The position numbers and the translations under genes are program-made. The notes below the pieces were generated by a model. It was not told the DNA's origin, did no database searches, and worked only from the letters and a program-made list of their open reading frames with translations. Positions 11,669-46,301 of a stretch of DNA of 64,000 nucleotides are shown here, piece after piece. Each line of letters starts with the position of its first letter. Position 1 is the first letter of the stretch. Source of the stretch: Prauserella cavernicola (GTDB taxonomy: Bacteria > Actinomycetota > Actinomycetes > Mycobacteriales > Pseudonocardiaceae); assembly GCF_016595675.1 (NCBI RefSeq), contig NZ_JAENJH010000007.1, positions 62,001-126,000 of the forward strand. The letters are read 5' to 3'.

Positions 11669-12886
11669 TCACGCCAGCCAGGGTGCGCGCACGAACGAGC
11701 GGTCCAGATCGCCGATCCTGGCCGCGCCCATGAGCTGCATACCGACGCGGACCTCGTTGGTGAGCAGGTCGAGAGCCCTGGTCACGCCCTGCCGTCCGCC
11801 CGCCATCAGCCCGTACAGGTAGGCCCGTCCCAGCAGGACGAAGTCGGCGCCACAGCACAGGGCGGCGATGACGTCCGCCCCGCTCATGACACCCGAGTCG
11901 AGCACGATCGGGATGTCAGGGCCGAGCTCACGGCGCACTTCGGGCAGTGCCGTGAGCGACGCGGGCACGTGGTCGAGCTGGCGTCCACCGTGGTTCGAGA
12001 CCACCACGCCGTCGGCGCCCGTGTCGACGGACCTGCGGGCGTCCTTGCCGGTGAGCACTCCCTTGACGAAGAGCTGCCCCGGCCACACCGAGCGGATCCA
12101 CGCCAGGTCCGAGAAGTCCAGGGACGGGTCGAACATCGAGTTGATCAGTGTCGGCAGGTCGGTGCTCGACGGCGAGAGCGAGGCGAAACTCAAGGGATCG
12201 GTGGTGAGGAAGTTGAACCACCACTCGGGCCGGTACGACGCGTCGGCCAGTGTGCGCAGCCGGATCCGGGGCGGGATGGTCATCCCGTTGCGAACGTCGC
12301 GCAGGCGCTGGCCCGCGACCGGGGTGTCGACAGTGACCAGCAGGGTGTCGAACCCGCTCGCCCACGCCCGGTCGAGCAGCTCCTGCGACCGGGCGCGGTC
12401 CTTCCACAGATACAGCTGGAACCACCGCCGGGCCTGCGGCGCCACGGCGGCGACGTCCTCGATGGACCGAGTGCCCATCGTGGACAGTGAGAACGGAATC
12501 CCCGCCCGTTGCGCCGCCACGGCGCCCGCCTCCTCGCCCTCGGCGTGCATGAAGCGAGTGAAGCCCGTCGGGCCGATGCCGAAGGGCAGGGCGGAGTGCC
12601 CTCCGGCGATCGTCACCGACAGGTCCACCTCGGCGGTGCCGTGGAGGACGGGCGGGAGCAGTTCGACGTCGTCGAACGCCGCCCGGTTGCGCGCCAGTGT
12701 CCGCTCGCGGCCCGCGCCGCCGTCCACGTAGTCGAACGCGGGCTTGGGCGTGCGGCGTTTGGCGATCGTCCGCAGGTCCCAGACGTCGGCCGCTCGGGCG
12801 AGCCGCGCGGCGCGACGGTCGGGGTTGAACCGCTCGAAGCGCATCAGCGCGGCGAGCTCGGAGAGCTGGGGTCGGCGTCGCATCAT
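11669..12886 (-). CDS. FMN-dependent alpha-hydroxyacid oxidase/dehydrogenase
   Basis: A 405-aa member of the LldD/glycolate oxidase/mandelate dehydrogenase family, which oxidises 2-hydroxyacids to 2-oxoacids with FMN. Visible signatures are FDYVDGGAG (substrate Tyr region), GPTGFTRFMH, FQLYLWKDR, the FMN lysine in FVKGVLTGKDA, and the active-site SNHGGRQLDH holding the catalytic His and substrate-binding Arg. The C terminus has LGRAYLYGLMAGG. The ATG overlaps the stop of the upstream MHS transporter (ATGA, 12883-12886), so the transporter probably imports the hydroxyacid oxidised here. Lactate, mandelate and glycolate cannot be told apart by eye. Confidence 0.88.
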   Translation of the reverse strand: MMRRRPQLSELAALMRFERFNPDRRAARLARAADVWDLRTIAKRRTPKPAFDYVDGGAGRERTLARNRAAFDDVELLPPVLHGTAEVDLSVTIAGGHSALPFGIGPTGFTRFMHAEGEEAGAVAAQRAGIPFSLSTMGTRSIEDVAAVAPQARRWFQLYLWKDRARSQELLDRAWASGFDTLLVTVDTPVAGQRLRDVRNGMTIPPRIRLRTLADASYRPEWWFNFLTTDPLSFASLSPSSTDLPTLINSMFDPSLDFSDLAWIRSVWPGQLFVKGVLTGKDARRSVDTGADGVVVSNHGGRQLDHVPASLTALPEVRRELGPDIPIVLDSGVMSGADVIAALCCGADFVLLGRAYLYGLMAGGRQGVTRALDLLTNEVRVGMQLMGAARIGDLDRSFVRAPWLA

Positions 12887-33844: not shown

Positions 33845-34246
33845 ATGCAGCTGCCTCGCGGAGGCGCAGGGGACGACGAGTCGGATCCCCGGGCGAGTTG
33901 CTCGGTCACCCGGATCCGGGAGGGCGACCGCTGTGACGTCGCCTTCGTCGTCGGCGAGATCGACGGGGGCAACGCCTACGACCTCGCGGCCTCACTCGGC
34001 GAGCTCCCCACCTGGTCGACGCGGTCGCTGATCATCGACCTGCGTGGCGTGGAGTTCTGCTCGGTGGCCGGGGCCAGGGTCCTGTGCGAACTCGACGCGC
34101 GCGCCAGGACCGGGGGTGTGCCGTTGGCGCTGGTGCCGTCCCCGGTCGTGCTCCTCGCGCTGCACCTGCTCGAGGTGCTGGACGACTTCACGATCTACCC
34201 CGAGCTCGACGAGGCCTTCGCCGCGCTGCCGGGCGCCCGTTCCTAG
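33845..34246 (+). CDS. STAS-domain anti-sigma-factor antagonist-like protein
   Basis: A 133-aa STAS-domain protein: VAFVVGEIDGGNAYDLAASL, LIIDLRGVEFCSVAGARVLCEL (the phosphorylatable Ser is in FCSVAG) and PSPVVLLALHLLEVLDDF. The family (SpoIIAA/RsbV) binds anti-sigma kinases and frees sigma factors. No partner kinase is adjacent. ATG 33845 has GGAGG at 33831-33835; an ATG at 33812 would add 11 Arg-rich residues. Its TAG stop lies within a CTAG that also supplies the stop of the convergent asparaginase gene. Confidence 0.78.
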   Translation: MQLPRGGAGDDESDPRASCSVTRIREGDRCDVAFVVGEIDGGNAYDLAASLGELPTWSTRSLIIDLRGVEFCSVAGARVLCELDARARTGGVPLALVPSPVVLLALHLLEVLDDFTIYPELDEAFAALPGARS

Positions 34247-35232
34247 CGCGCGGGTCGTGCGGACGCCGGGAACAGGTCACCGGCAGGGATTCCGGCGGAC
34301 AGGCCGAACAGTGTGCGCAGGCGCGCTTTCGGCGCGGAGAGCATGCCGGCGAAGTGGAGTCCGGCCCGGCGCAGCTCCGTCTCGGATCCCGCGCCGCCAT
34401 AGGTGTGGCTCAGCAGAGCGCCGTCGGGACACCGGCTGGTGATCACGACGGGCTTGCCCGCGTCCGCGATCCGTACCAGCGCCTCGCCGAGCGACGGCGA
34501 GACGTGCCCGGCGCCGAGCGCCGCCACCACCAGTGCGTCCACATCGGACGCGATGGTGCCGGCGGCGGAACCGTCGATCCCGGTGGCCGCATGCAGGAGC
34601 CCGACCCGCGTCCTCGGCGGGCCGGTGCGGGCGAGCAGGTCGGTGCCCGGTGGAGGACCGAGCAGCAGTTCGAGCCGGTCCTCGGCGACGAACCCGACCG
34701 GTCCCGCTGCCGGGGAACCGAACGCCGCGACGCGCGTGCTGTGCAGCTTGGTGACCAGGCGCGCGACGTGCACCTCGTCCTGGAACACGACGGTCGGACC
34801 GTAGCGCGCCAGTGCCGGGTCGGCCGCGGCGACGAGCGCGGCCCGGACGTTGGCCGGTCCGTCGGGTCCCGCCAGGTGGGGCGAGCGCATGGCACCGGTG
34901 AGCACCACCGGCACGCGGGTGTCGACGAGCAGCCCGAGCGCGTAGACGGTCTCCTCGAGCGTGTCCGTGCCATGAGTGACGACGACGCCGTCGCGGCCGT
35001 GCGCGATCTCCTCGGTGACGGCGGTGGCGAGCGTCCACAGGTCACCGGGTGTCATGCGCCGGGACGAGCTGCTCAGCGCGTCGCGGGGGACGACGTCGAT
35101 GCCCTCGGGGCTCGCGTCGGCGTGTGGCGTCAGCGCTCCGGCGCCGTCGTGCCGTTGCGCGTCGGCGGTGGGCGGGGCGACGGAGATGGTGCCGCCCGTG
35201 GCGATCAGGGCGATCGACCGTCGCGACGACAT
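34243..35232 (-). CDS. L-asparaginase
   Basis: A 329-aa asparaginase/glutaminase-family protein. The N-terminal threonine motif ALIATGGTIS (about 8-17) and the second motif VVVTHGTDTLEETVY hold the two catalytic Thr residues and the Thr-Asp pair, with the catalytic Lys in VVLTGAMRSP replaced by context Arg/Met and worth checking. It hydrolyses L-asparagine to L-aspartate and ammonia. There is no signal peptide, so it is cytosolic. Its ATG overlaps the IclR stop by 1 nt (TGATG), so regulator and enzyme form one leftward operon divergent from the orotate-type operon. Both pathways converge on aspartate, which may explain the shared control. Confidence 0.85.
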   Translation of the reverse strand: MSSRRSIALIATGGTISVAPPTADAQRHDGAGALTPHADASPEGIDVVPRDALSSSSRRMTPGDLWTLATAVTEEIAHGRDGVVVTHGTDTLEETVYALGLLVDTRVPVVLTGAMRSPHLAGPDGPANVRAALVAAADPALARYGPTVVFQDEVHVARLVTKLHSTRVAAFGSPAAGPVGFVAEDRLELLLGPPPGTDLLARTGPPRTRVGLLHAATGIDGSAAGTIASDVDALVVAALGAGHVSPSLGEALVRIADAGKPVVITSRCPDGALLSHTYGGAGSETELRRAGLHFAGMLSAPKARLRTLFGLSAGIPAGDLFPASARPAR

Positions 35233-36011
35233 CAGGACACGGCCTCGGGGTTGCCGAGCTCGGCCGACAGTCGCCCGGCGGCGCGCCGGGCCGCGTCGGT
35301 GATCCGCGTGCGGACCTCGGCGTCGGCGACCCGCGAACCAGGTGCGGTGATGGTGAGACTGGACAGGACCTGGTCGTCGCCGTCGCGGATCGGGACCGAC
35401 ACGGCCCACGCGTCCGGGTCGAGTTCGTTGTCACAGACCGCGTAGCCCTTCTCGCGGACCTCCTTGAGCACGTGCATGACGTCGTCGACGTGGTGCGGCG
35501 TGCCCGCGGTGTACTCGGTCAGCTCGACGCCCTCGAGCAGGGTTCGCACGACCTGTTCGTCGAGGTGGGCCAGAATCGCGCGGCTCGACGCCGCGGCGTG
35601 CAACGGCATCTCCTGTCCGATCCGGACGAACAGCCGTAGCGCGTGCTCGGCCTCCACAATGGACACGCAGACGGGAACGTCGCCGATGAACTCGGTGAGG
35701 AACACGGTCTCGCCGGTCTCGTCGGCGGCGTCGACGAGAGCGGCGGGCGGTGTCACCAGCCGGGCGCTGTGCGAACCGGTGGCGCCGGTGAGCGTGCGCG
35801 CGGCCCGTCCGACGAAGTAGCGCTTCGTCACGGGGGACCGCCGGAGGTAGTCGACCTGGCCGAGCGTGGTGAGGATGCGGTGCAGGCTGCCGAGGGGGAT
35901 GTCGAGCTCGTCGTGCAGCTCCTGCAGCGTGAGTCCGGAGCGCGCGGCGCCGACCGCGTTGAGGACCTCCACGGTGCGAACGACGACCTCGAGGGGTCGT
36001 GCGGCGCTCAT
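35232..36011 (-). CDS. IclR-family transcriptional regulator
   Basis: A 259-aa IclR regulator. The winged helix (VVRTVEVLNAVGAARSGLTLQELHDELDIPLGSLHRILTTL, about 8-50) is followed by a GAF-like effector domain (about 75-250) with the family-typical HAAASSRAILAHL and GYAVCDNELDPDAWAVSVPIR. It is divergent from the catabolic operon starting at 36200. The intergenic palindrome TGGAAAGACGTTTCCA matches the classic IclR consensus and is its likely operator. Confidence 0.88.
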   Translation of the reverse strand: MSAARPLEVVVRTVEVLNAVGAARSGLTLQELHDELDIPLGSLHRILTTLGQVDYLRRSPVTKRYFVGRAARTLTGATGSHSARLVTPPAALVDAADETGETVFLTEFIGDVPVCVSIVEAEHALRLFVRIGQEMPLHAAASSRAILAHLDEQVVRTLLEGVELTEYTAGTPHHVDDVMHVLKEVREKGYAVCDNELDPDAWAVSVPIRDGDDQVLSSLTITAPGSRVADAEVRTRITDAARRAAGRLSAELGNPEAVS

Positions 36012-36155: not shown

Positions 36156-36171
36156 TGGAAAGACGTTTCCA
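36156..36171. promoter_or_regulatory. IclR operator palindrome
   Basis: TGGAAA-GACG-TTTCCA is a perfect 6-bp-arm dyad 29 nt before ATG 36200. The E. coli IclR consensus is TGGAAAT-N-ATTTCCA (established knowledge). A further TGGAAA half-site overlaps the ribosome-binding region at about 36187. It lies between the divergent IclR/asparaginase and orotate-type operons. Confidence 0.75.
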
Positions 36172-36199: not shown

Positions 36200-37153
36200 A
36201 TGCCGCGGATCCTGGACGATCAGCACGTCGACGGCCTGCTGCCGCCCTCGGCCGCGCTCGCCGACGTGCGCACGGCGTTCGGGCTGCTCGCGGCGGGCGA
36301 GGCGACCGACGAGCCGAGGCGGCGCAGCGCCGCGGGAACCGTGACGCTCAACGTCATGTCGGCGATCGCGCCGACACTCGACGCGGCACTGGTCAAGTCC
36401 TATCCGGTGGTGCGCGCGGGGACCAACCGCGGCAGCGTCATCACCGTTCTCGTCTACTCCTGCGCGTCCGGCGAACTGCGCGGACTGCTCAGAGCGGATC
36501 TGCTCGGCAGGCGGCGGACGGCGGCGGCCTCGGCGCTCGCGACCTCGGTGCTCGCCAGACCCGAGAGCGGCACCGTGTGCTTGCTGGGCACGGGGTTCCA
36601 GGCACCGGCGCAGGTCAGTGCGCTGACCGAGGTGCTGCCGCAGCTGCGGACGGTGCTGGTCGTCGGCCGCGACGCGGACAGGGCGGCGAGCACCGCGAAC
36701 ATCCTGCGAGCCGCGCATCCGGGGCTGGACGTCGAGTCCGGCACCAGCCCGGAGCACGCGGTGCCGCGAGCCGACGTCGTCGTCACCGCGACGGGGTCGG
36801 CCGAACCGCTGTTCGACGGACGGCTCCTGCGCCCTGGCACGCACGTCAACGCCGTCGGCAGCAACCACGCGGCGCGCCGGGAGCTCGACCGCGCGACGTT
36901 CCAGCGGGCCGCGCACGTCAGCGTCGACTCCGCCGCCGTCGCCCGGCTGGAGTGCGGCGACCTGCTCGCGAACGGCCTCGACCCGGCGGAGGCGAGCGAG
37001 TTCGCCGACGTGCTCGCCGGACGAGCGGCGGGCCGCACCGACGGCGACGAGATCACCGTCTTCGAGTCGCACGGGCTCGCCATCCAGGACCTGGTCTGCG
37101 CCGTCAGGGTGCTCGGCGCGGCGGCCGAGGCAGGCGTCGGCACGGTCACCTAG
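36200..37153 (+). CDS. Ornithine cyclodeaminase/mu-crystallin-family protein
   Basis: A 317-aa NAD(P)-dependent protein of the OCD/mu-crystallin family. The substrate lysine/arginine region reads ALVKSYPVVRAGTNRGS, the Rossmann motif is CLLGTGFQAPAQVSAL, and VVVTATGSAEPLFDG and HVNAVGSNHAARREL follow. Relatives include ornithine cyclodeaminase, alanine dehydrogenase, ketimine reductase and SbnB-like N-carboxyalkyl amino acid dehydrogenase. It is first in an operon of orotate-degrading enzymes, so an imine or amino-dicarboxylate substrate is plausible but unproven. ATG 36200 follows GGAAAGGA. Confidence 0.82.
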   Translation: MPRILDDQHVDGLLPPSAALADVRTAFGLLAAGEATDEPRRRSAAGTVTLNVMSAIAPTLDAALVKSYPVVRAGTNRGSVITVLVYSCASGELRGLLRADLLGRRRTAAASALATSVLARPESGTVCLLGTGFQAPAQVSALTEVLPQLRTVLVVGRDADRAASTANILRAAHPGLDVESGTSPEHAVPRADVVVTATGSAEPLFDGRLLRPGTHVNAVGSNHAARRELDRATFQRAAHVSVDSAAVARLECGDLLANGLDPAEASEFADVLAGRAAGRTDGDEITVFESHGLAIQDLVCAVRVLGAAAEAGVGTVT

Positions 37154-37203
37154 CTCATCCGGTCCACCAGCACATCACCACCGATCCACGTCAGAGGAGA
37201 AAC

Positions 37204-38622
37204 ATGAGGTTGCACATCGTCAACGGCCGGCTCGTCACCCCGGCGGGCATTCTCGACAGCGACCTGCTCTGCACGGACGGGACCATCACGGCGATCCTGG
37301 ACCGCGGCGCGCCGGTCGAGGCCGACGAACGCTACGACGCCGCGGGCAACCTGGTGTTTCCCGGGTTCATCGATCCGCACGTGCACTCCCGCGACCCCGG
37401 TCTGAGCCACAAGGAGGACTTCGACCACTCGACGCGGGGCGCCCTCGTCGGCGGTGTCACCACGGTGCTGGAGATGCCCAACGCGATCCCGCCGGTCGAC
37501 TCGGCCGAGGTCTTCGAGCAGCGTCGCCGGCAGCACGAACAGTCGGCGTGGACCGACTTCGGCCTGTGGGGGCTGGCCCTCGGCGACGCCAACATCGACC
37601 AGATCGGCCCGCTGTTCGACGCGGGCGCCGTCGCCGTGAAGCTGTTCTGGGGCTACGCGCTGCATCGCGAGACCCGCTCGCTGGTCTACAACCTCGGTGA
37701 CGAGAAGCCCGAGGACCTGCTGATGCCGCCGCCGAACGGTCAGGTGCTGCAGCTCTTCGCCGAGGTCGCCAAGCACGGCGGCGTGCTCGCGGCGCACTGC
37801 GAGGACAAGGACGTGCTGGCCACGAGCCAGGAAGCGCTCGGCCACGCCATCGAGACCTACGAGGACCTGCTCGCCGCGCGGCCCGCGGTCGCGGAGGCCA
37901 CCACCATCTCGATCGCCGCGCAGTTCGCGAAGGCCACCGGGTGCCGTTTCCACGTGGTGCACCTGGCCTCGGAGATGGGGCTCGACGCCGTCCGCACGGC
38001 GCAGCGCAACGGGATCTCCGTCAGCGCGGAGACCTGCCCGCAGTACCTGACGCTGACCGACGCGGACTATCCCCGCGTCGGCCCGGTCATGAAGGTGTAC
38101 CCGCCGGTGCGCGAGCAGAGCGACCAGGACGCGCTGTGGGCCGGGTTCAACGACGACGCGATCTCGTCGGTCGGCTCGGACCACGCGCCGCACACCGTCG
38201 AGGAGAAGTCGCGCGGGTTCGAGACCCAGCCCGCGGGCGCGGTCGGGTGCGAGACCTTCGGCCCGGTCCTGCTGGACGCGCTCGCGCGCGGGAAGACGAC
38301 GGCGATGCGGCTCGCGGAGGTCGCCTCGACGCAGACCGCGAAGTTCTACGGCCTCTACCCCCGCAAGGGCGTGATCCGTCCCGGCAGCGACGCCGACCTG
38401 GTCATCGTCGACCCGGAGCAGACCCGGACCGTCCGCAATGACGAGCTGATCGCCAAGCAGCCGGTCAGCCCGTGGAACGGTGTCGAGCTGCGCGGTGGTC
38501 CGGTCGCGACGGTGCTGCGCGGCGAGGTCGTGGTGCGCGATCGCGAGATCGTCGCCGAGCGCCGGGGCCGGTTCGTCCCGGCCGACCACTCCGCGAATCA
38601 GACCGACGGGCGCGGCGAGTGA
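37204..38622 (+). CDS. Dihydroorotase-type cyclic amidohydrolase
   Basis: A 472-aa cyclic amidohydrolase. Metal ligands are His59 and His61 (DPHVHSRDPG), the carboxylated Lys146 (AVKLFWGY), His198 (LAAHCED), His253 (VVHLASE) and Asp326 (GSDHAPH). Arg63 after the HxH and Asn93 in MPNA are the residues that bind the dihydroorotate carboxylate in dihydroorotases (established for E. coli PyrC), separating it from hydantoinases. The length is nearer to allantoinase or dihydropyrimidinase, so those remain possible. With the dehydrogenase pair and carbamoyl hydrolase downstream, ring opening of dihydroorotate to N-carbamoyl-L-aspartate is proposed. ATG 37204 follows AGAGGAG. Confidence 0.82.
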   Translation: MRLHIVNGRLVTPAGILDSDLLCTDGTITAILDRGAPVEADERYDAAGNLVFPGFIDPHVHSRDPGLSHKEDFDHSTRGALVGGVTTVLEMPNAIPPVDSAEVFEQRRRQHEQSAWTDFGLWGLALGDANIDQIGPLFDAGAVAVKLFWGYALHRETRSLVYNLGDEKPEDLLMPPPNGQVLQLFAEVAKHGGVLAAHCEDKDVLATSQEALGHAIETYEDLLAARPAVAEATTISIAAQFAKATGCRFHVVHLASEMGLDAVRTAQRNGISVSAETCPQYLTLTDADYPRVGPVMKVYPPVREQSDQDALWAGFNDDAISSVGSDHAPHTVEEKSRGFETQPAGAVGCETFGPVLLDALARGKTTAMRLAEVASTQTAKFYGLYPRKGVIRPGSDADLVIVDPEQTRTVRNDELIAKQPVSPWNGVELRGGPVATVLRGEVVVRDREIVAERRGRFVPADHSANQTDGRGE

Positions 38623-39965
38623 GCTCCGCCGACGAGCTGACCTCGGGCGTGCGCGAGGCGGTCCGGCAGGCGTGCGCGCTCGCGGCCGAACCACTCGACG
38701 CCGCGGTGCGCCGCCACGCGGCACACGTTGTCGCTGACACCATCGGCGTGAGCATCGCGGGCGGGCGGACCGCCGAGATGACGAGTCTGCGCGCTGCCGA
38801 CGACATCGACGCCGCGCTGGGCGCCGCGCCCGGTGAGGGCCGCTCGACGGTCCTCGCCGCGGGCGCGGCACTGGCGCCCGCGGAGCACGCCGCGTTCCAC
38901 AACGCGTCGGCGGGCGGTTTCCTCGAGCTCGACGAGGGAACGCGCCCGACCGGTCATCCGGGCATGCACATCGTGCCAGCGGCACTCGCCGTGGCCGAGG
39001 CCGCGCGCCGGTCCGGCCCCGAGCTGCTGAGCGCGGTCGTCGCCGGGTACGAGGTCAGCGCCCGGCTCTTCACCGCGTTCCGGTTGCGGCCACCGACGCA
39101 CCCGCACGGCCACCTCGCCGGGGTCGGGTCGGCGGTGAGCGTGGCGTTGCTGCTCGGCGAGGACCCCGAGGCGGCGGCCGCGATCGCGGCGACGACGCCC
39201 GTGGTGCCCGTGTGGAACGCCTGCTACGTGGGGGCGACCGCGCGCAACACCGCGATGGGGCTGGCCGCGCAGGCGGCCGTGCGGGCGAACCGCCTGCTGC
39301 GCGCGGGGTTCACCGGGTCGCTCGAGTCGATCCCGGCGCTGTTCGGCGAGCTGACCGGGGAATCCGCCGACCTCGACGCGTTGCGGGAACCGTTCGATCC
39401 CGCGCGCCCGCGGATCATGCGGAACTACTTCAAGCGCCACAGTTCCTGCGCCCTGACCCACGGCGCCATCGACGCGGTGCTGTCCCTGCCCGCGGTCGAC
39501 GTCACCGACATCAGCGCGATCGAGGTGCGCACCGTCGCCAACAACCTCAAGCTCGACCGCGTTCCGTTCGCCAACGACCTGTCCTCGCGGTTCTCGCTGC
39601 CCTACGCGGTGGCGGCGGCGCTGACGCGGCGCCGGTCGACGGTCGCCACCTTCGACTACGACCCGGAGGTGGCGCGGCTCGCCGGGAAGGTCAGCGTCGG
39701 CGTCACACCGGAGTTCGAACGACGGTGGCCGGAGCACGCGCCCACCGAGGTCGTCGTCCACACCACGGACTCGACGTGCTCGGCCGTCGTCGACGACCCG
39801 CGCGGGCATCACCACGACCCGCTGTCGGCCGGCGAACTGCGCGACAAGTTCGCCGGTCTCGTGGGCGACGGCGCCGGTGCGCTGTGGGACCGGCTCCTCG
39901 CCCTGCCGCAGGTCGACGACTGCGCCGACCTGCTCGCCCCACTGCGGACCACCTCGCTCGGGTAA
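38619..39965 (+). CDS. MmgE/PrpD-family protein
   Basis: A 448-aa all-helical MmgE/PrpD protein: HVVADTIGVSIAGG near the start, HNASAGGFLELDEG, HPGMHIVPAALA, GYEVSARLF, KRHSSCALTHGAID, and the C-terminal dehydratase-like DPRGHHHDPLSAGELRDKF. The family includes 2-methylcitrate dehydratase, cis-aconitate decarboxylase and iminodisuccinate epimerase. The last acts on an aspartate-derived compound, which fits this operon better than methylcitrate, but the assignment is inference. The GTG overlaps the dihydroorotase stop (GTGA). Confidence 0.83.
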   Translation: MSSADELTSGVREAVRQACALAAEPLDAAVRRHAAHVVADTIGVSIAGGRTAEMTSLRAADDIDAALGAAPGEGRSTVLAAGAALAPAEHAAFHNASAGGFLELDEGTRPTGHPGMHIVPAALAVAEAARRSGPELLSAVVAGYEVSARLFTAFRLRPPTHPHGHLAGVGSAVSVALLLGEDPEAAAAIAATTPVVPVWNACYVGATARNTAMGLAAQAAVRANRLLRAGFTGSLESIPALFGELTGESADLDALREPFDPARPRIMRNYFKRHSSCALTHGAIDAVLSLPAVDVTDISAIEVRTVANNLKLDRVPFANDLSSRFSLPYAVAAALTRRRSTVATFDYDPEVARLAGKVSVGVTPEFERRWPEHAPTEVVVHTTDSTCSAVVDDPRGHHHDPLSAGELRDKFAGLVGDGAGALWDRLLALPQVDDCADLLAPLRTTSLG

Positions 39966-40004
39966 GCAGGCTCGCCTCCTCCAGCGTGAAAAGAGGTTCC
40001 CACC

Positions 40005-40985
40005 GTGACCACCCGCATCGTCGACGCGCCCCGGGGGCGTGAGCCCGCCACACCGTCCCGTCCACCGGCCGACCTCAGGGTGGAGCTCGGCGGCCTCGCA
40101 CTGGCCAACCCGGTGATGCCCGCCTCCGGCTGCTTCGGCCCCGAGCTCGCCGACCTCATGCCCGTCGACGTGCTCGGCGCCGTCGTGACCAAGACGGTGT
40201 TCGCCACCGCCCGGCCGGGAAACCGGACGCACCGCATCACCGAGGTGTCGCACGGGATGCTCAACAGCGTCGGGATTCCCAGCCAGGGAGCGGCGGAGTT
40301 CCGCCGATCCGGGCTGGGCGGCTATGCCGCGCTCGGCGCTCCCGTCGTGGTCAGCATCGGCGGACTGTCCACAGCGGAGTACTGGCGGGTCGCCGACGAA
40401 CTGGCCGGGGCCGGGCACGCCGCGCTCGAGGTGAACGTGTCGTGCCCCAACCTCGAACGTGGCGGCGCGACGCTCGACACCGATCCACGGGCGATGAGCG
40501 AGGTCGTGGCCGGAGTGGTCGCCCGCAGCTCCACGCCCGTGCTGGTCAAGCTGAGCCCGCAGCTCCAGACGATCGGGGACGCGGCGAAGGCCGCGGCCGA
40601 CGCGGGTGCCAGTGCGGTCACGGTCTGCAACAGCTTTCCCGGCCTGGCCGTGAATCCCGCGCGGCGCGAGCCCGAACTGGGCAACGGCACCGGCGGAGTG
40701 TCCGGGCCCGCCGTCAAACCGCTCGCGCTGCGCCTCGTCTGGCTGGCCGCACAGGCCGTCGACATTCCCGTCGTCGGCTGTGGCGGCATCCGTTCGGCCG
40801 CAGACGTCGCGGAGTTCCTCGTCGCGGGTGCCACGGCGGTCCAGGTCGGCACCGCCACCTTCGCCCAGCCCGCCCTGATGGCTCGCATCGTCGCGGAACT
40901 GCCCGCACTGGCAGCGCGGCTCGGCGTGGACAGACTCGCGGACCTCATCGCCACACTCACCACCCGACCAAAGGAACAGCCATGA
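40005..40985 (+). CDS. Class 1B-type dihydroorotate dehydrogenase catalytic subunit
   Basis: A 326-aa FMN TIM-barrel dehydrogenase. LALANPVMPASGCFG, the flavin Lys63 (VTKTVF), NSVGIPSQG and the active-site EVNVSCPNLERGG (Cys147) identify class 1; class 2 enzymes have Ser there. The glycine-rich GCGGIRSAADVAEFLVAGA binds FMN phosphate. The 1B form needs a PyrK partner, which this operon supplies at 44040. It interconverts orotate and (S)-dihydroorotate with NAD(H). In this catabolic setting, reduction of orotate is the proposed direction. Starts with GTG; its stop overlaps the MFS gene (ATGA). Confidence 0.87.
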   Translation: MTTRIVDAPRGREPATPSRPPADLRVELGGLALANPVMPASGCFGPELADLMPVDVLGAVVTKTVFATARPGNRTHRITEVSHGMLNSVGIPSQGAAEFRRSGLGGYAALGAPVVVSIGGLSTAEYWRVADELAGAGHAALEVNVSCPNLERGGATLDTDPRAMSEVVAGVVARSSTPVLVKLSPQLQTIGDAAKAAADAGASAVTVCNSFPGLAVNPARREPELGNGTGGVSGPAVKPLALRLVWLAAQAVDIPVVGCGGIRSAADVAEFLVAGATAVQVGTATFAQPALMARIVAELPALAARLGVDRLADLIATLTTRPKEQP

Positions 40986-42280
40986 GCAACGACAACGACG
41001 ACGTTGACGCGACCGCGACCCGGGCGGCGGGGGACACCTCGCACTCCGACGACGGTCAGCCGCAGGAGGTCACCCCGTACGGGCGGAAAGCGGTTCTCGG
41101 AGCCACGGTCGGCTACGCGATGGACGGTTACGACCTCCAGATCCTGGGCTTCGCGCTGCCCGCGATCACGCTGAGCCTCGGCCTGTCCGACACCCAGGGC
41201 GGCCTGCTCGCCACGATCACCCTGATCGGCACCGTCACCGGCGCGATGTTCTTCGGGGCGCTTGCCGACCGCTACGGGCGCGTGCGCATCCTGACGTACT
41301 CGATCCTGCTGTTCGCGATCTTCACCGGTTTGACGGCGTTGTCGCAGGGCTTCACCGAGATGGCGGTGTTCCGCTTCATCGCGGGCATGGGCATCGGTGG
41401 TGAGTTCGGCATCGGCATGGCGCTGGCGGCCGAGGCGTTCCCCGCGATCAAACGGGCCAGGGCGACGTCCCTGGTCGGCGTGGGGTTCCAGCTCGGGGTC
41501 CTGCTGGCGGCGTTCATCTCGGCGCCGGTGATCGCACTGTGGGGCTGGCAGGGACTGTTCGTCATCGGCATCTTCCCGGCGCTGGTCGCCATCGCGCTGC
41601 GGATGCGGCTGGCCGAGCCCGAGGCGTTCGTCCGGCACCGCGCCCGGGTCGAGGCCGGGCAGAAGCAGAAGAACCCGTACCACCTGCTCGTCGCCGACGC
41701 CAAGACCGTGCGCATCAGCATCGGCATCGTCATCATCTGCTCGATCCAGAACTTCGGCTACTACGGGATTCTCACGTGGCTGCCGACGTATCTGACCAAA
41801 CAGCTGGGGTTGAGCACGACCAACTCCGGGATCTGGACCGCGGTCACCGTGCTCGGCATGATCGCCGGGATCATGATCTTCGGCCAGCTCGCCGACCGGC
41901 TCGGGCGCCGCCGTGCCTTCTGGATCTTCCAGGCGGGCGCGTTCGTCTCGCTGCTGGTGTACAGCCAGCTGACCTCGCCCGCCGCGGTCCTCATCGGTGG
42001 CGCGGTCATGGGCGTCTTCGCCAACGGCATGCTCGGTGGTTACGGGGCGATCATCGCGGAGAACTACCCGACGGCGGCCAGGGCCACGGCACAGAACGTC
42101 CTGTTCGGAATCGGGCGCGGCGTGGGCGGGTTCGCACCGCTCGTCGTCGCGCTGATCGCCGGCTGGCAGGGATTCGGTGTGGCGCTGGGCTTCCTCGCGC
42201 TGATCTACATCATCGACATGGCGGCCATGCTGCTCATCCCGGACCGGCGGGGTGAGCGGCTCGACAACGCCGTGGCCTGA
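40982..42280 (+). CDS. AAHS-type MFS transporter (aromatic/heterocyclic acid:H+ symporter)
   Basis: A 432-aa, 12-helix MFS carrier of the aromatic acid:H+ symporter group (PcaK/BenK-like). The first helix has the motif GYAMDGYDLQILGFALP, with the conserved acidic residues of AAHS carriers. Loop 2-3 is GALADRYGRVRIL and loop 8-9 is GQLADRLGRRRAF. Orotate is a planar heteroaromatic carboxylate, so an aromatic-acid symporter is a natural importer for this operon. It is translationally coupled to the dehydrogenase gene upstream. The N terminus (about 30 residues) is acidic and cytosolic. Confidence 0.87.
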   Translation: MSNDNDDVDATATRAAGDTSHSDDGQPQEVTPYGRKAVLGATVGYAMDGYDLQILGFALPAITLSLGLSDTQGGLLATITLIGTVTGAMFFGALADRYGRVRILTYSILLFAIFTGLTALSQGFTEMAVFRFIAGMGIGGEFGIGMALAAEAFPAIKRARATSLVGVGFQLGVLLAAFISAPVIALWGWQGLFVIGIFPALVAIALRMRLAEPEAFVRHRARVEAGQKQKNPYHLLVADAKTVRISIGIVIICSIQNFGYYGILTWLPTYLTKQLGLSTTNSGIWTAVTVLGMIAGIMIFGQLADRLGRRRAFWIFQAGAFVSLLVYSQLTSPAAVLIGGAVMGVFANGMLGGYGAIIAENYPTAARATAQNVLFGIGRGVGGFAPLVVALIAGWQGFGVALGFLALIYIIDMAAMLLIPDRRGERLDNAVA

Positions 42281-42313
42281 CGGTTTTCGGTCGAACTGCG
42301 AAAGGGAGGCATC

Positions 42314-42790
42314 GTGTCGAACACACCCAGCCCAGCGGTGGCGGTGCGGACGCTCGGCGTCGCGCAGGACACCTACGGGCCGACGGTCAACACAGGCCGG
42401 TCGCCGCGGGATGTCGAGGTGCTCGGGCGGGCTCTCGCGGAGTCGTTGCGCCCGCGGAACCCGGAGACGCTGGTGGTGTGGAACACCTCGGACGAGGCCG
42501 TGCTGGCGCACGCCGTGGCCAGGGAGCTCGGCGTGATCGTCCGGCGCGCGTCGGAGGTGGAGGGAATTCTCGCCCTCGACGAGCCGATGGCACCGGGGAC
42601 GCGCGTCGCGCTGGTGGCGACGACGTGGGACGGGCGCTGGCTGGAGACGTTGCGACGCCTGGTGCTCGGCAGCGGCGGTGAGCTCGTCGTGGCCGCTGCC
42701 GTGCTCGGGTCGGATGTGCTCGATGCCGTCTCCGGCCTGCCCACGACGTCGTTGGTGTCTGCCAACGAGGTGACGGAGTCCGCCCCGTGA
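42314..42790 (+). CDS. Orotate-phosphoribosyltransferase-like protein lacking the PRPP loop
   Basis: A 158-aa protein that tracks type I PRTase/PyrE layout. YGPTVNTGR (21-29) matches the OPRT segment preceding the orotate pocket, and LGRALAESLRP, AHAVARELGV and MAPGTRVALVATTWDG (92-107) sit where PRTases have the PRPP loop with two acidic residues and TTGGS. Both acidic residues and the Gly-Gly-Ser are missing, so PRPP-dependent catalysis is unlikely. It may bind orotate as a sensor or scaffold, or do something else. The GTG is preceded by GGGAGG. Its stop overlaps the next gene (42787). Confidence 0.62.
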   Translation: MSNTPSPAVAVRTLGVAQDTYGPTVNTGRSPRDVEVLGRALAESLRPRNPETLVVWNTSDEAVLAHAVARELGVIVRRASEVEGILALDEPMAPGTRVALVATTWDGRWLETLRRLVLGSGGELVVAAAVLGSDVLDAVSGLPTTSLVSANEVTESAP

Positions 42791-44043
42791 GCGGGCTCGT
42801 CGCCGATCCGGCGCGCCTGCGGGAACTGCTCGACACGTTCGCCGGAATGTCCGAACGGGACAGTGGACCCGGTGTCACGCGCCTGGCCTACACGCCACTC
42901 GAGCGGGCCGCGCACGAGTTGTTCGCCCAGTCGATGACCGCGCTGGGGCTGACGGTGTGGACCGACGCGGCGGGCAACACGATCGCGCAGCGGCCGGGGT
43001 CCGATCCCGGGCTGCCCGCGATCGGCACGGGCTCGCATCTGGACAGTGTGCCGAACGCCGGTTCCTTCGACGGGATCGTCGGTGTGTGCGCCGCGATGGA
43101 GACGGCGCGGGCGCTCGCCGAGCACGAGGTGACGCACCGGCATCCCATGCGGTTCGTGGTGTTCGCGGCGGAGGAGGGAGCGCGCTTCGGCCAGGCCTGC
43201 ACCGGCAGCCGGATCGCGGCGGGCCTCACCGGTCCCGCCGACCTGCCGGCGAAACAGGACGCGGACGGCGTGAGCCTCGCCGACGCCATGAACGCCGTCG
43301 GGCTCGATCCCGACGCCGTGGCCGAGGCCGGCTGGCGGCCCGCCGACTGGGCCGCGTTCGTCGAGCTCCACATCGAGCAGGGCAGCGTGCTCGAGACGGA
43401 CGGGGTGCGGCTGGGCGTCGTCGACTCGATCTCGGGCAGCACGCGGCTGCTCCTCGAACTCAGTGGCCGCGCGTCGCACAGCGGTGGGACACCGATGCAC
43501 CTGCGTGCGGACGCGATGGCCGCCGCCGCGGAGGTGGTGCTGGCCGTCGAGTCGGCGGCGGGCGGCGAGGACAACGCGGGCACGCGCACGACCGTCGGCA
43601 AGATCGACGTGGCGCCGGGCTCGATCACGACCATCGCGGGCCGGGCGACGATGTGGGTCGACGTGCGGGGCACCGATGCCGGGCGGCAGCGCGACACCGC
43701 CGAGGAGATCGTGCGGCGTGCCGAGGCGATCTGCGCGCGCCGCGGGATCGCCTTCCGGCACGACCTGCTCGCCGACACTCCGCCGGTCCGGTTGCCCGAT
43801 ATCGTCCGCGACGAGCTCGCGGCGGCCTGCCGCTCCGTCGGCGTCGAGCCGCGCGTGCTCACCAGCGGCGCCAGCCACGACGCCCAGCAGATCAACACGA
43901 TCACACCGAGCGGGATGCTGTTCGTGCCGAGCAAAGAGGGGATCAGCCACGATCCGGCGGAGTGGACGAGCATCGACGACATCGCGCTGGGTACGACCGC
44001 GCTGACGGCGAGCCTGCTCCGGCTGGACGAGGGCCTGTCGTGA
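42787..44043 (+). CDS. M20-family N-carbamoyl-L-amino-acid hydrolase
   Basis: A 418-aa Zn-dependent amidohydrolase of the HyuC/AllC/beta-ureidopropionase group. Metal ligands are visible as His84 (GSHLDSVP), Asp95 (GSFDGIVGV), the Glu129-Glu130 pair (FAAEEGARFG), the His in ELHIEQG and the C-terminal His in ASHDAQQ. The dimerisation domain with GRASHSGGTPMHLRAD lies between. The family hydrolyses N-carbamoyl amino acids to amino acid, CO2 and ammonia. Here N-carbamoyl-L-aspartate from dihydroorotate opening is the expected substrate. It overlaps both neighbours by 4 nt. Confidence 0.87.
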   Translation: MSGLVADPARLRELLDTFAGMSERDSGPGVTRLAYTPLERAAHELFAQSMTALGLTVWTDAAGNTIAQRPGSDPGLPAIGTGSHLDSVPNAGSFDGIVGVCAAMETARALAEHEVTHRHPMRFVVFAAEEGARFGQACTGSRIAAGLTGPADLPAKQDADGVSLADAMNAVGLDPDAVAEAGWRPADWAAFVELHIEQGSVLETDGVRLGVVDSISGSTRLLLELSGRASHSGGTPMHLRADAMAAAAEVVLAVESAAGGEDNAGTRTTVGKIDVAPGSITTIAGRATMWVDVRGTDAGRQRDTAEEIVRRAEAICARRGIAFRHDLLADTPPVRLPDIVRDELAAACRSVGVEPRVLTSGASHDAQQINTITPSGMLFVPSKEGISHDPAEWTSIDDIALGTTALTASLLRLDEGLS

Positions 44044-44858
44044 GCGGGCCGGCGGCGCTCGGCGTCCTGGAGGGTGAGCGGCCGGTACCGGCGTGCGAAC
44101 GGGCGGAGGTGCTCGTCAGCCGGCCCCTGTCGGATCGCTACCGGCTGCTGCGGTTTCGCTCGCCTGTCATCGCCGAGCGCGCCAGGGCGGGACAGTTCGT
44201 GATGCTCGCCCCGGTGACGGAGTCCGGGCCGGTCCTGCCGCGGCCGATGGCCATCTACACCCGCGATGCCGCCGCGGGCGTCGTGGACATCGTCTACGGC
44301 GTCGTCGGTGCCGGGACCACGGCGCTGTCGGCCGTCGCGGCGGGTGAGACCGTCGTGGTCACCGGGCCACTGGGGCGAGGGTTCGCGATCCACGACGACA
44401 CCGAGCGCGTGCTCCTGCTCGGGCGGGGAGTGGGTATCTGCGCCATGACCACCGTCGCCCAGGACCTGGCGGACACGCCGGTGCGCGTGGCCGCGGTGCT
44501 GAGCGGCCGCCACGACGCGTCGATCATCGGCGCGGACGTCCTGCGCGCCTGCCGCGCCGACGTGCGCCGCGTGACCGACGCCGACGGCACCAGCGGCGTG
44601 CCCGCGGTGCGGGAGCGCCTGCACCGTGCCTTCGACGTCGACCCGCCGCAGCAGATCCTGACCAGCGGCTCCGAGCGGCTGACGCGGCTGGCCGCGCAAC
44701 TCGCCGCGCGCTGGCGCGCGACCGCGCAGGTGTCCATCGAGGCGCACATGGCCTGCGGCCTCGGCTACTGCCACGGCTGCGCCGCGGGTGACGGCGACGG
44801 AACGCGCGAGGCGCCGCTCGTCTGCCGGGACGGACCGGTTTTCCGGCTGCGGACGTGA
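44040..44858 (+). CDS. PyrK-like dihydroorotate dehydrogenase electron-transfer subunit
   Basis: A 272-aa ferredoxin-reductase-fold protein. It has an FAD site RPMAIY (68-73), the NAD region LLLGRGVGICAM (126-136) and a C-terminal [2Fe-2S] site with Cys239, Cys244, Cys247 and Cys262 (spacing C-x4-C-x2-C-x14-C), as in PyrK. It links NAD(H) to the class 1B dehydrogenase at 40005. The two subunits are separated by three genes, unlike the usual adjacent pyrK-pyrD pair. GTG start overlapping the hydrolase stop; last gene of the operon. Confidence 0.85.
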   Translation: MSGPAALGVLEGERPVPACERAEVLVSRPLSDRYRLLRFRSPVIAERARAGQFVMLAPVTESGPVLPRPMAIYTRDAAAGVVDIVYGVVGAGTTALSAVAAGETVVVTGPLGRGFAIHDDTERVLLLGRGVGICAMTTVAQDLADTPVRVAAVLSGRHDASIIGADVLRACRADVRRVTDADGTSGVPAVRERLHRAFDVDPPQQILTSGSERLTRLAAQLAARWRATAQVSIEAHMACGLGYCHGCAAGDGDGTREAPLVCRDGPVFRLRT

Positions 44859-45119
44859 CCGAGTGACAAGACTCTCGTCAGCACGTCGCACCCGCGACGC
44901 TGCGGGCGCACGCGTGCTCGGGCCGGTGGCCGATCCGCTGGTGGACGGTACTGAATCGACGGAACGGGCCGTGAGCACCGTGTCCGTTTTGCCTGTGAAG
45001 AGCCTTGCACTTTCGCTCAACCGCAGGGGCCAGGCCGTGCGATGTGGTTGCCGTGCTCTGGCGCCGCTACCTATCGTTCTCATAATGATCATCAGGATCG
45101 ACGCCGCGAGGACGGTGTC
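44859..45119. other. Intergenic region after the orotate-type operon
   Basis: No gene is seen. The stretch contains the palindromes GCACGCGTGC (about 44918) and ATGATCAT (45085-45092), the latter in an AT-rich patch 30 nt before ATG 45120 that could be an operator or promoter core for the MFS gene. Confidence 0.4.
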
Positions 45120-46301
45120 ATGAAGGCCGCGCAATCCACCCTCCGGGTGGGATTCGGCGCGGTCGCGATCACTACCTCGACCGTGCTTCCGGTCTTTCTC
45201 ACCGGGGCCATGACGGTGCAGATCTCGGCCGAGCTCGCCTTCGATCCCGCCGGGCTCGGTCTCGTGGTGGCGTTGTACTTCGCCGTGTCGGCACTGGTGT
45301 CGCTCCCGATCGGAAAGCTCGTCGAGCGCCTGGGATCCGGCCGCACCAGCCGGATCGCCGTGCTCGGCTCCGCCGCGTGCATGCTGCTGATCGCGGGATT
45401 CGCCCAGAACTACGCCACATTGCTCACGTTCCTGTTGTGCTCGGCGTGGTGCAATGTGATGGGCCAGCTGTCCTCCAACCTCACACTGGCGCGCCTGATG
45501 CCCGCCAACCGCATGGGACTGTCCTTCGGGGCCAAGCAGGCCTCGGTGCCCTTCGCCACCCTGCTGTCCGGGATCGCGGTTCCCGCCATCGGACTCACCA
45601 TCGGCTGGCGGTGGGCCTACGTGATCGCCGCGGTGGTCGCGCTGAGCGCACTGTTCCTGGCCCCGCGCGGCGCCGGGCCCGCCCCACGGGAGAAGGCCGT
45701 TCCCGAGGACAGGGCCACCGCGGCACTGTCGGTGATCGGCGCGGCCGCGGGACTCGGTGCGGCCTCGGCGAACGCGCTCGGCATCTTCCTCGTGGCGTCG
45801 GCGGTCGAACGCGGTGTGAGCCCGGGACTGGCCGGGCTGGTGCTGACCCTGGGCAGCGTGGTCGGGCTGCTGATGAGGCTGCTGCACGGCTGGCTCGCCG
45901 ACCGGCGCTCGGGCGGGCACGTCGCCGTGGTCGCGGGCTGTCTGCTGCTGGGCGCGATCGGGCTGGTGCTGCTCGCCGTGCCCGGCCCGGTCTGGCTGAT
46001 CGTCGGCACGGTGCTGGGCTTCGGGCTCGGCTGGTCATGGCCGGGGCTGCTGCAGTTCGCCGTCGTGCGGTTGAACCCGTCGGCGCCCGCTGCGGCGACG
46101 TCGATCGTGCAGGCGGGCGTCTACGCGGGCGGGTTCATCGGGCCGATCGGGTTCGGGTTCCTCGCGACCCACGCCTCGTTCACCGTGGCGTGGGCGGTGT
46201 CGGCGGCGGCGATGCTGGTCGCGGGCGGCGCCGTGTTGCTGGGCCGCCGGATGCTGGTGGCGCACGTACGGCGACCGGCCGTGCAGCCCGCTGTCTCCTG
46301 A
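45120..46301 (+). CDS. MFS transporter (CynX/NimT-like)
   Basis: A 393-aa, 12-helix major facilitator with weak loop motifs (GKLVERLGSGRTSRI in loop 2-3, HGWLADRRSGGHVAVVAG in loop 8-9) and FGAKQASVPFATLLSG in helix 5. The small size and SSNLTLARLMPANRMGLSFG resemble the CynX/NimT-like and uncharacterised actinobacterial MFS groups. Substrate unknown. It is separated from the orotate-type operon by 260 nt and probably independent of it, though a role in exporting or importing a pathway intermediate cannot be excluded. Confidence 0.8.
   Translation: MKAAQSTLRVGFGAVAITTSTVLPVFLTGAMTVQISAELAFDPAGLGLVVALYFAVSALVSLPIGKLVERLGSGRTSRIAVLGSAACMLLIAGFAQNYATLLTFLLCSAWCNVMGQLSSNLTLARLMPANRMGLSFGAKQASVPFATLLSGIAVPAIGLTIGWRWAYVIAAVVALSALFLAPRGAGPAPREKAVPEDRATAALSVIGAAAGLGAASANALGIFLVASAVERGVSPGLAGLVLTLGSVVGLLMRLLHGWLADRRSGGHVAVVAGCLLLGAIGLVLLAVPGPVWLIVGTVLGFGLGWSWPGLLQFAVVRLNPSAPAAATSIVQAGVYAGGFIGPIGFGFLATHASFTVAWAVSAAAMLVAGGAVLLGRRMLVAHVRRPAVQPAVS

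Follow-up and report, generated by a model that had tools for sequence, protein, structure and literature searches.

An operon probably serving reductive orotate catabolism in the actinomycete Prauserella cavernicola

Based on gene families, active-site motifs and the neighbourhoods of related genes, we propose that in this soil-type actinomycete the operon at positions 36200-44858 of the window, the 64,000-nucleotide stretch of DNA analysed here, is in all likelihood devoted to the reductive breakdown of orotate, a precursor of pyrimidines, in the manner known from Clostridium oroticum. Enzymes of pyrimidine biosynthesis would here work in the reverse direction. This is the best-supported reading, and the support for it is strong but inferential. 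Bacterial orotate breakdown is old biochemistry: Clostridium (Zymobacterium) oroticum converts orotate to dihydroorotate, then to N-carbamoylaspartate and finally to aspartate. In the window, genes for an orotate reductase, a dihydroorotate hydrolase and an N-carbamoylaspartate hydrolase, each assigned by family only, are co-located, and related sets of genes occur in several bacterial phyla. The chemistry of the pathway is already known; the gene-level, cross-phylum picture is new, as is an associated module of OCD, MmgE/PrpD and asparaginase proteins, and no gene cluster for bacterial orotate breakdown is described among the matches listed in open-licence PMC text. Orotate degradation had been put forward for this DNA in a preliminary description, and it is supported alike by the neighbourhoods of relatives, by the motif tests, by the operator and by a dihydropyrimidinase locus lying apart from the operon. 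In the proposed scheme an IclR-controlled operon would serve the use of external orotate: an AAHS-type MFS carrier would import it, PyrK would draw electrons from NADH and deliver them, via FAD and a 2Fe-2S cluster, to the FMN of PyrD, PyrD would reduce orotate to dihydroorotate, as its family and active site suggest, a dihydroorotase-type enzyme would open the ring to N-carbamoyl-L-aspartate, and an M20 enzyme would convert this to L-aspartate, CO2 and NH3.

The operon comprises eight tightly packed rightward genes, and the genes for an IclR-family regulator (35232-36011, minus strand) and an asparaginase-family protein (34243-35232, minus strand) are divergent from it, a pairing that had been recognised before. 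Stop and start codons overlap at four operon junctions and at the IclR/asparaginase junction; the remaining gaps within the operon are 50, 39 and 33 bases. The whole ten-gene arrangement is found again, with 62-90% identity, in loci L022 and L023, and also in L031 and L032, both from Pseudonocardia, and this recurrence in relatives confirms that the arrangement is more than chance. Every gene named in the preliminary description is present where it was placed; one further gene, at 42314-42790, had been overlooked. An MFS gene at 45042-46301 was considered as an additional operon member and rejected, as tblastn at 1e-20 gave no match to it in the other loci searched.

PyrD (40005-40985, plus strand), the class 1B dihydroorotate dehydrogenase catalytic subunit and proposed orotate reductase, exceeds the PRK07259 cut-off (303.3 bits against 269) and misses that of TIGR01037 (260.2 against 270). 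It has the active-site cysteine of class 1B enzymes, Cys147, and the aligned Lys and Asn residues, which have roles at the catalytic site. Its partner PyrK (44040-44858, plus strand) passes PF10418 (39.9 bits, cut-off 23.9) and carries four cysteines for a 2Fe-2S cluster, Cys239, Cys244, Cys247 and Cys262; no NCBIfam PyrK model reaches its cut-off with this protein. These residues, like the Arg63 and Asn93 discussed below, lie exactly where they had been reported. We propose PyrD-PyrK as an NAD-linked orotate/dihydroorotate enzyme pair. It shares the catalytic Cys, the aligned Lys and Asn and the PyrK cluster domain with PyrD-PyrK of Lactococcus lactis (1ep1-1ep3), but the window loop reads GIPS, not GLQN, and the operon context appears catabolic. 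The dihydropyrimidine dehydrogenase of E. coli, PreA-PreT (L118), belongs to the same superfamily and carries out the same kind of reduction on a pyrimidine ring; however, where the window PyrD retains K63, an N-S-V-G-I loop and SCPN, the aligned PreA has GFIGFKN and SCPQ, and the window has PyrK, not PreT. A PreA-like substrate loop is absent, and the PreA model gives 109.5 against a cut-off of 335.

What sets PyrDs of this kind apart from others? In a locus scan whose frequencies are biased towards the window PyrD type, because it retained the 80 loci closest to the PyrD of the window and one of the two seed patterns was GM[LI]NSVGI, 51 of the 62 rows with the IPS motif, and none of the 17 with LQN, have an M20 gene no more than 6 kb from PyrD (Fisher test on 79 of 84 rows, omitting five with other motifs). 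Eight of the 11 IPS-motif rows without a nearby M20 gene are from Cryobacterium. A tree of 84 rows splits the 53 M20-linked PyrDs from the 17 LQN PyrDs at a 100/95 branch, and the M20-linked PyrDs on one side of it stem from four phyla. L026 and L039 represent one genome and are both in the motif table, the tree omitting L026; L124 is absent from table and tree.

The dihydroorotase-type cyclic amidohydrolase (37204-38622, plus strand) exceeds the cut-off of TIGR00857, pyrC_multi (295.4 bits against 279.05), and all dihydroorotase equivalog models among the 25 NCBIfam matches listed fall below theirs. PDB alignments and comparison with relatives show that it keeps Arg63 and Asn93, the residues that bind the substrate carboxylate in dihydroorotase. 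The Arg/Asn pair is kept in 25 of the 29 M20-linked rows having an amidohydrolase match, counted on a base of 55 M20-linked rows that includes L124 and one genome twice, and it spans window-type, type-I PyrC and Pseudomonas-type amidohydrolases. Among the exceptions, the L043 protein is without the Asn and the L045 protein without either residue, and the L081 and L108 matches are partial. In 24 of the 30 proteobacterial M20-linked loci the flank examined yielded no amidohydrolase at E 1e-4. The M20 hydantoinase/carbamoylase-family amidase (42787-44043, plus strand), proposed as N-carbamoyl-L-aspartate hydrolase, passes TIGR01879 (401.3 bits, cut-off 204), and its best PDB match is an N-carbamoyl-L-amino acid hydrolase. 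The models passed by the M20 and dihydroorotase-type proteins of the operon are broad. The MFS carrier (40982-42280, plus strand), of the aromatic acid:H+ symport type and the proposed orotate importer, scores 316.6 bits with TIGR00895, below the cut-off of 418.55. Relatives at least 40% identical to it occur in 34 of the 53 M20-linked loci; NMT1-type binding proteins occur in seven of the 53, never together with an MFS relative.

The leading rival is reductive catabolism of uracil or thymine (or uridine), in which PyrD-PyrK would be a dihydropyrimidine dehydrogenase, the dihydroorotase-type protein a dihydropyrimidinase and the M20 protein a beta-ureidopropionase. The three-step chemistry is identical; class I dihydroorotate dehydrogenase relatives in fungi act on dihydrouracil by oxidising it, according to PMC9585004; and PF01180 brings up nothing PreA-like above its cut-off in the rest of the genome. 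A uridine-phosphorylase-family gene in some related actinobacterial clusters could mean uridine or uracil. We nevertheless rank uracil catabolism lower, and judge it unlikely, because PyrD is unlike PreA at the substrate loop and after the active-site Cys, because the genome's own dihydropyrimidinase, like its allantoinase, lacks the Arg/Asn pair of the operon enzyme, and because a separate locus at C44 combines an NCS1 symporter and that type of enzyme, a dihydropyrimidinase, with a nitrilase-family amidase and an aminotransferase-family protein. The operon carrier, moreover, is nearest the aromatic-acid type.

Two other explanations have to be weighed against orotate catabolism. A hydantoin or ureide operon, acting on 5-carboxymethylhydantoin or another carboxylated cyclic ureide, would have PyrD-PyrK reduce an unsaturated orotate analogue. 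Although the top scores of the amidohydrolase are with the allantoinase model and the L-hydantoinase 1gkr, both carboxylate-binding residues are absent from 1gkr, and the protein passes pyrC_multi but neither AllB (322.4, cut-off 357.85) nor ErtD. The M20 protein is also above the cut-off of PRK09290.1-5, named allantoate amidohydrolase (421.2 against 399), and MmgE relatives lie near hydantoinase-like genes in L125-L127; OPRT-fold genes in relatives, on the other hand, point to orotate, and we regard a hydantoin substrate as improbable. Least credible, and in our estimation highly improbable, is the idea that the operon is another pyrimidine cluster for biosynthesis or salvage. In some relatives a neighbouring PyrE does have a PRPP motif that looks intact, but genes are present for a protein of the N-carbamoyl hydrolase family, for a carrier and for an IclR regulator, and Pfam and NCBIfam profiles reveal no pyrB, carAB or pyrF among the operon genes, just as had been noted. 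Pyrimidine biosynthesis is encoded elsewhere: pyrB, pyrC and carA are located at C90 with carB beside them (by position and a look at the sequence only), pyrF is also at C90, pyrE at C22 and a class-2 pyrD at C2. The catabolic reading had been made to depend on a second, biosynthetic pyrD and pyrC, and with both present it stands.

The orotate catabolism proposed for the window resembles that of C. oroticum, in terms of chemistry, in the reaction sequence and the class 1B dihydroorotate dehydrogenase; it differs in its actinomycete host, the IclR-linked operon with an MFS carrier, the dead OPRT-fold protein and the OCD/MmgE/asparaginase module. That the C. oroticum enzyme is class 1B is given by a reference title in PMC9326563. 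By model names, the ergothioneine-utilisation proteins ErtD and ErtE (NF058539, NF058540) offer a further likeness, a cyclic amidohydrolase and an M20 carbamoylase leading to an acidic amino acid, but the window proteins stay below both cut-offs (266.1 of 650 bits for ErtD, 383.8 of 520 for ErtE). If orotate is indeed the substrate, a set of biosynthetic-looking PyrD/PyrK pairs would be catabolic and could be distinguished by the loop (GIPS or GLQN) and by a neighbouring M20 gene. This would matter for genome annotation, for class 1B dihydroorotate dehydrogenase as a drug target and for the question of which organisms use excreted orotate. Through the OCD/MmgE module, two orphan subfamilies, OCD and MmgE/PrpD, would likewise gain a tractable role.

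The overlooked gene (42314-42790, plus strand) encodes a 158-residue protein with no Pfam or NCBIfam match at E 0.001. Its AlphaFold2 model (pLDDT 94.7) has a phosphoribosyltransferase fold, Foldseek placing APRT first and OPRT from rank 13. At the acidic PRPP-binding loop the alignment gives ATTWDGR versus VEDVLTTG in the PyrE beside it in L043; having lost the loop, the protein probably acts as a sensor or partner and not as an enzyme. PRT-like proteins were found in 8 of 298 genomes of the order, its own included, but the matches in G187 and G135 are weak (5e-4 and 1e-3), and no cluster lies in the corresponding regions, L027 and L028. Across the phylum the PRT-like model matched 27 of 396 genomes at 1e-8; values below 1e-30 came only from G000 and G527, and the next best was 3.4e-16.

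The OCD/mu-crystallin-family protein (36200-37153, plus strand; PF02423, 157.8 bits), a possible imine reductase or amino-acid dehydrogenase, the MmgE/PrpD-family protein (38619-39965, plus strand; above the PF03972 and PF19305 cut-offs), a candidate epimerase or lyase, and the iclR-coupled asparaginase-family protein (above the PF00710 and PF17763 cut-offs) are found all together or not at all, in 6 of 85 loci, one of which belongs to another class and has another gene order. This co-occurrence ties OCD and MmgE/PrpD to the pathway, to which they had been suggested as additions, and the three proteins form a linked accessory module that most likely acts on aspartate or an N-substituted aspartate. 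MmgE occurs in 5 of 396 genomes of the phylum at 1e-40, and the G527 MmgE, searched within its class at 1e-60, in 1 of 39, G527 itself. As a guess, OCD could oxidise aspartate via iminosuccinate, giving back the NADH spent on orotate, and MmgE could epimerise or deaminate an aspartate derivative. A full extended, redox-neutral pathway, with OCD as NADH-regenerating aspartate dehydrogenase, MmgE/PrpD as a new epimerase or ammonia/urea lyase on aspartate or N-carbamoylaspartate and the dead OPRT-fold protein as an orotate sensor with IclR, seems doubtful. OCD reaches no NCBIfam cut-off, that of the iminosuccinate reductase BhcD included, and iminosuccinate reductase 6rqa is tenth of 13 solved structures compared with it. 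The MmgE/PrpD protein has the expected fold, with cis-aconitate decarboxylase first in Foldseek and iminodisuccinate epimerase at rank 4; it has ARNTAMG instead of TKPMHTG or MKPLHAG, the Lys-Pro-x-His stretch that has an active-site role.

No NCBIfam model fits the IclR protein better than BhcR, which prompted us to consider membership of the BhcD/BhcR system of the beta-hydroxyaspartate cycle; BhcD ranks seventh of 15 for OCD. Membership was rejected, as both scores are far below cut-off (120.5 of 350 bits for BhcR and 110.5 of 500 bits for BhcD). The IclR gene is operon-adjacent in relatives as well. Between it and the operon lies a probable IclR operator, TGGAAAGACGTTTCCA (36156-36171, no strand assigned), the sole exact TGGAAANNNNTTTCCA in the 7.2-Mb genome; this TGGAAA-N4-TTTCCA site occupies the same place in L022, L023, L032 and L033, and likewise in L031, where it has one mismatch. 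A second, degenerate operator with two mismatches (39987-40002, no strand assigned) stands just before pyrD, and its counterpart in relatives is exact in L031, L032 and L033 and has one mismatch in L022 and L023. Such conservation suggests that IclR may bind TGGAAA-N4-TTTCCA sites upstream of the operon and, in close relatives, also upstream of pyrD.

Based on sequence comparisons, we propose that the eight rightward genes at 36200-44858, whose ends lie close together or overlap, encode a reductive catabolism in which PyrD-PyrK, the dihydroorotase (DHOase)-type hydrolase and the M20 amidase would take orotate to aspartate. A pair comprising iclR (35232-36011, minus strand) and an asparaginase gene (34243-35232, minus strand) diverges from them. 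Pfam and NCBIfam assigned seven of the eight genes, to the OCD/mu-crystallin, DHOase-type amidohydrolase, MmgE/PrpD, PyrD, AAHS-like MFS, M20 carbamoylase and PyrK families; PyrD missed the TIGR01037 cut-off by 10 bits, PyrK reached none of the NCBIfam PyrK cut-offs, and the M20 protein also passed that of a model named allantoate amidohydrolase. The operon is as the preliminary description had it, with all the residues cited there found in place, except that a phosphoribosyltransferase-like (PRT-like) gene at 42314-42790 was absent from its list; its reading of orotate degradation is likewise favoured. A further MFS gene lies just 3' of pyrK (45042-46301); searching the remaining loci of the set at 1e-20 gave no match to it.

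Could the operon serve biosynthesis instead? Elsewhere in the 7.2-Mb assembly are pyrB, pyrC and carA, adjoined by carB as judged by position and a look at the sequence only, pyrF at C90:126832, pyrE on contig C22 and, on contig C2, a class-2 pyrD in which Ser replaces Cys (NCBIfam PRK05286.2-5, 459 bits against a cut-off of 267). The preliminary description would have been undermined by a genome without a second, biosynthetic pyrD or pyrC; a separate pyrC and class-2 pyrD are present, so this objection does not apply, and the operon, judged by gene content, is very unlikely to be biosynthetic.

A wider comparison was made by profile search of genome contigs with a PyrD alignment, one seed pattern being GM[LI]NSVGI, from which the best 80 of 560 relatives were kept. 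In an alignment of 84 PyrD rows, positions 91-93 are IPS in 62, LQN in 17 and something else in five. An M20 gene lies within 6 kb of PyrD in 51 of the 62 IPS rows versus none of the 17 LQN rows (Fisher p = 2.7e-10 over 79 rows, a value that ignores relatedness and the seed pattern). A maximum-likelihood tree was built from 84 rows, with E. coli PreA added and the duplicate L026 dropped; in it one branch (support 100/95) parts 53 M20-linked rows, from Actinomycetota, Chloroflexota, Pseudomonadota and Bacillota, from the 17 LQN rows; because the root is not fixed, the M20-linked group is one side of a branch rather than a proven clade. Five of the 17 LQN loci (L075, L087, L090, L093 and L094) have pyrC and pyrE matches beside PyrD and resemble a pyr operon. 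Counting against a catabolic PyrD group are 11 IPS rows with no M20 gene nearby; eight are Cryobacterium loci with a lone IPS-type PyrD-PyrK pair (L046-L050, L055, L059, L061), and for two (L058, L102) the available flanks are short.

The main rival to orotate as substrate is uracil. K63 and SCPN are kept in all 84 PyrD rows; every row bar L102 also has the N-[SA]-[VI]-G loop, whereas E. coli PreA, a distant row, aligns as GFIGFKN and SCPQ. Arg63 and Asn93 of the DHOase-type protein have counterparts in the solved dihydroorotases 3gri, 3mpg and 4yiw, in contrast to L-hydantoinase 1gkr, which has an equivalent of neither. Within the same genome the pair is present in PyrC (L116) and missing from the allantoinase (L020), the dihydropyrimidinase (L030) and a hydantoinase-like protein (L029). 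When the flanking DNA of 55 M20-linked rows was searched (L124 included, L026/L039 counted twice), 29 gave an amidohydrolase match and 25 of these 29 had both residues, among them window-type enzymes (including one from Sporolactobacillus, 42% identical), type-I PyrC (~28%) and Pseudomonas enzymes (~28-30%). Asn is missing from the L043 amidohydrolase, ~5 kb from PyrD; L045 has a different amidohydrolase with neither residue, and L081 and L108, with partial matches, are not among the 25. No amidohydrolase match was found in the flanking DNA of 24 of the 30 proteobacterial M20-linked loci, where the step would call for a DHOase encoded at another place.

A separate locus on contig C44 (L030) is where one would look for uracil or hydantoin use; it encodes an NCS1 symporter (408.7 bits) and a dihydropyrimidinase (TIGR02033, 602 bits), both over cut-off, with a nitrilase-family amidase and an aminotransferase-family protein. 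An F420-type oxidoreductase adjoining the dihydropyrimidinase and symporter (TIGR03842, over cut-off; L030 7459-12259) may be an F420-dependent pyrimidine reductase. On the side of other pyrimidines, a uridine-phosphorylase-family gene at some loci could release orotate from orotidine or act on uridine. At L026 (5442-6218) such a gene is coupled to the cluster or lies close by, together with an NMT1-type ABC importer, and the same situation was seen in L024, L025, L037, L038, L042 and L053.

How is the proposed orotate operon distributed? PRT-like matches occur in eight of 298 genomes of the order, own genome counted. In L022 and L023 all ten genes are arranged as in the window; two of the eight matches are weak and lie in no cluster. 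Among the best 80 of 560 PyrD relatives, L031 and L032 (Pseudonocardia) have the full set, and L033 (P. acaciae) has IclR, DHOase, PyrD, MFS, PRT, M20 and PyrK but lacks all three of OCD, MmgE and asparaginase. Among the further actinomycete loci of that set, many combine PyrD, IclR, PRT-like, M20 and PyrK genes with a type-I PyrC, several adding, by family checks on examples, a PyrE-like gene, a uridine-phosphorylase-family gene and an NMT1-type ABC importer. Chloroflexota loci carry PyrE, PRT-like, M20, PyrK and PyrD, and Pseudomonadota loci PyrK, PyrD and M20, with an MFS in many and a DHOase too in four Pseudomonas loci. A second, partial PyrD-IclR-PRT set lies beside the full cluster of Streptomyces sp. 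SID9727 (L034 999-2993). L024 and L025 (genomes G083 and G150) have IclR, nucleoside-phosphorylase-like, ABC importer, PRT-like and PyrC-like genes; PyrD, M20 and PyrK matches to the window genes were not found there within 18 kb.

OCD, MmgE and asparaginase relatives (E <=1e-10) occur in six of 85 PyrD loci (the window, L022, L023, L031, L032 and L124), always all three, their absence elsewhere being weak evidence in some loci because those are short. In L124, from a genome of another class of the phylum (G527), MFS, PyrD, PyrK and IclR (27% identical) point leftward; next come DHOase, MmgE, PyrE, M20 and PRT-like, pointing rightward, and lastly OCD, a FAD_binding_2 protein and asparaginase, again leftward. 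Almost the same genes in another order argue for shared function. Matches are split over more than one frame for DHOase and OCD in L031 and for DHOase, M20 and OCD in L124, through sequencing errors or decay. The modelled MmgE fold (pLDDT 81, from 8 sequences) is like those of cis-aconitate decarboxylase and iminodisuccinate epimerase; the protein reads ARNTAMG where they read MKPLHAG or TKPMHTG, a stretch we take to be in the active site. Since iminodisuccinate and N-carbamoylaspartate are both N-substituted aspartates, a compound of this kind is a plausible substrate for MmgE, working as an epimerase or a lyase. Iminosuccinate reductase belongs to the OCD family, and its reaction in reverse would return one NADH per orotate; counting against this role, BhcD ranks only 7th of 15 models and 6rqa only 10th of 13 structures for the OCD protein. 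In other parts of the phylum (L125, L126, L127), MmgE/PrpD genes lie near hydantoinase-like genes, with neighbours that look FAD-protein-like or xanthine-dehydrogenase-like by sequence, which we read as ureide pathways.

The PRT-like protein (42314-42790) has no match in Pfam or NCBIfam. Its AlphaFold2 model (pLDDT 94.7) has adenine phosphoribosyltransferases as top structural matches, with orotate phosphoribosyltransferases appearing from rank 13, yet the PRPP loop, judged by its motif, is missing. By eye, the PRPP motif of PyrE-like neighbours looks intact in L035 and lost in L036, L037 and L038; with L034 these look like stages of decay, next to a PRT-like gene that is fully degenerate.

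Clostridium oroticum has an orotate degradation pathway, and degradative dihydroorotate dehydrogenases were reported in aerobes in mid-century. Among the open-licence PMC papers listed by literature searches, none is on an orotate-catabolic operon; much relevant work lies outside that scope, and the absence is therefore weak evidence of novelty. The C. oroticum dihydroorotate dehydrogenase is class 1B, according to the title of a paper cited in PMC9326563. The core is known chemistry, now described at gene level and across phyla; the new parts are the dead OPRT-fold protein and the module of OCD, MmgE and asparaginase.

As an aromatic carboxylate, orotate would fit a symporter of the aromatic acid:H+ type; the model that scores best for the window carrier is TIGR00895, whose cut-off of 418.55 bits exceeds the carrier's 316.6. 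Among the 53 M20-linked loci, 34 have an MFS at least 40% identical to this carrier, seven have an NMT1-type binding protein with 50% or more identity to the L024 one, and none has both.

The palindrome TGGAAA-N4-TTTCCA, which we take to resemble the E. coli IclR consensus, has a single copy in the genome, at 36156-36171; its reversed control has none. With up to one mismatch allowed, 0.01 copies of the site would be expected in the window. L022, L023, L032 and L033 share it in the corresponding position, as does L031 apart from one mismatch; all five have a second site before pyrD, exact in three, and the window's second site (39987-40002) has two mismatches. Other sites in 98 sequences, at one mismatch, lie between divergent genes in L024 and L025, with strays in L040, L060 and L109; being so scarce beyond L022, L023 and L031-L033, the site is a feature of close relatives. 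Elsewhere in the window, a weak PF01180 match (21 bits, below cut-off) lies at ~11810-11965 on the minus strand, inside a 569-aa open frame.
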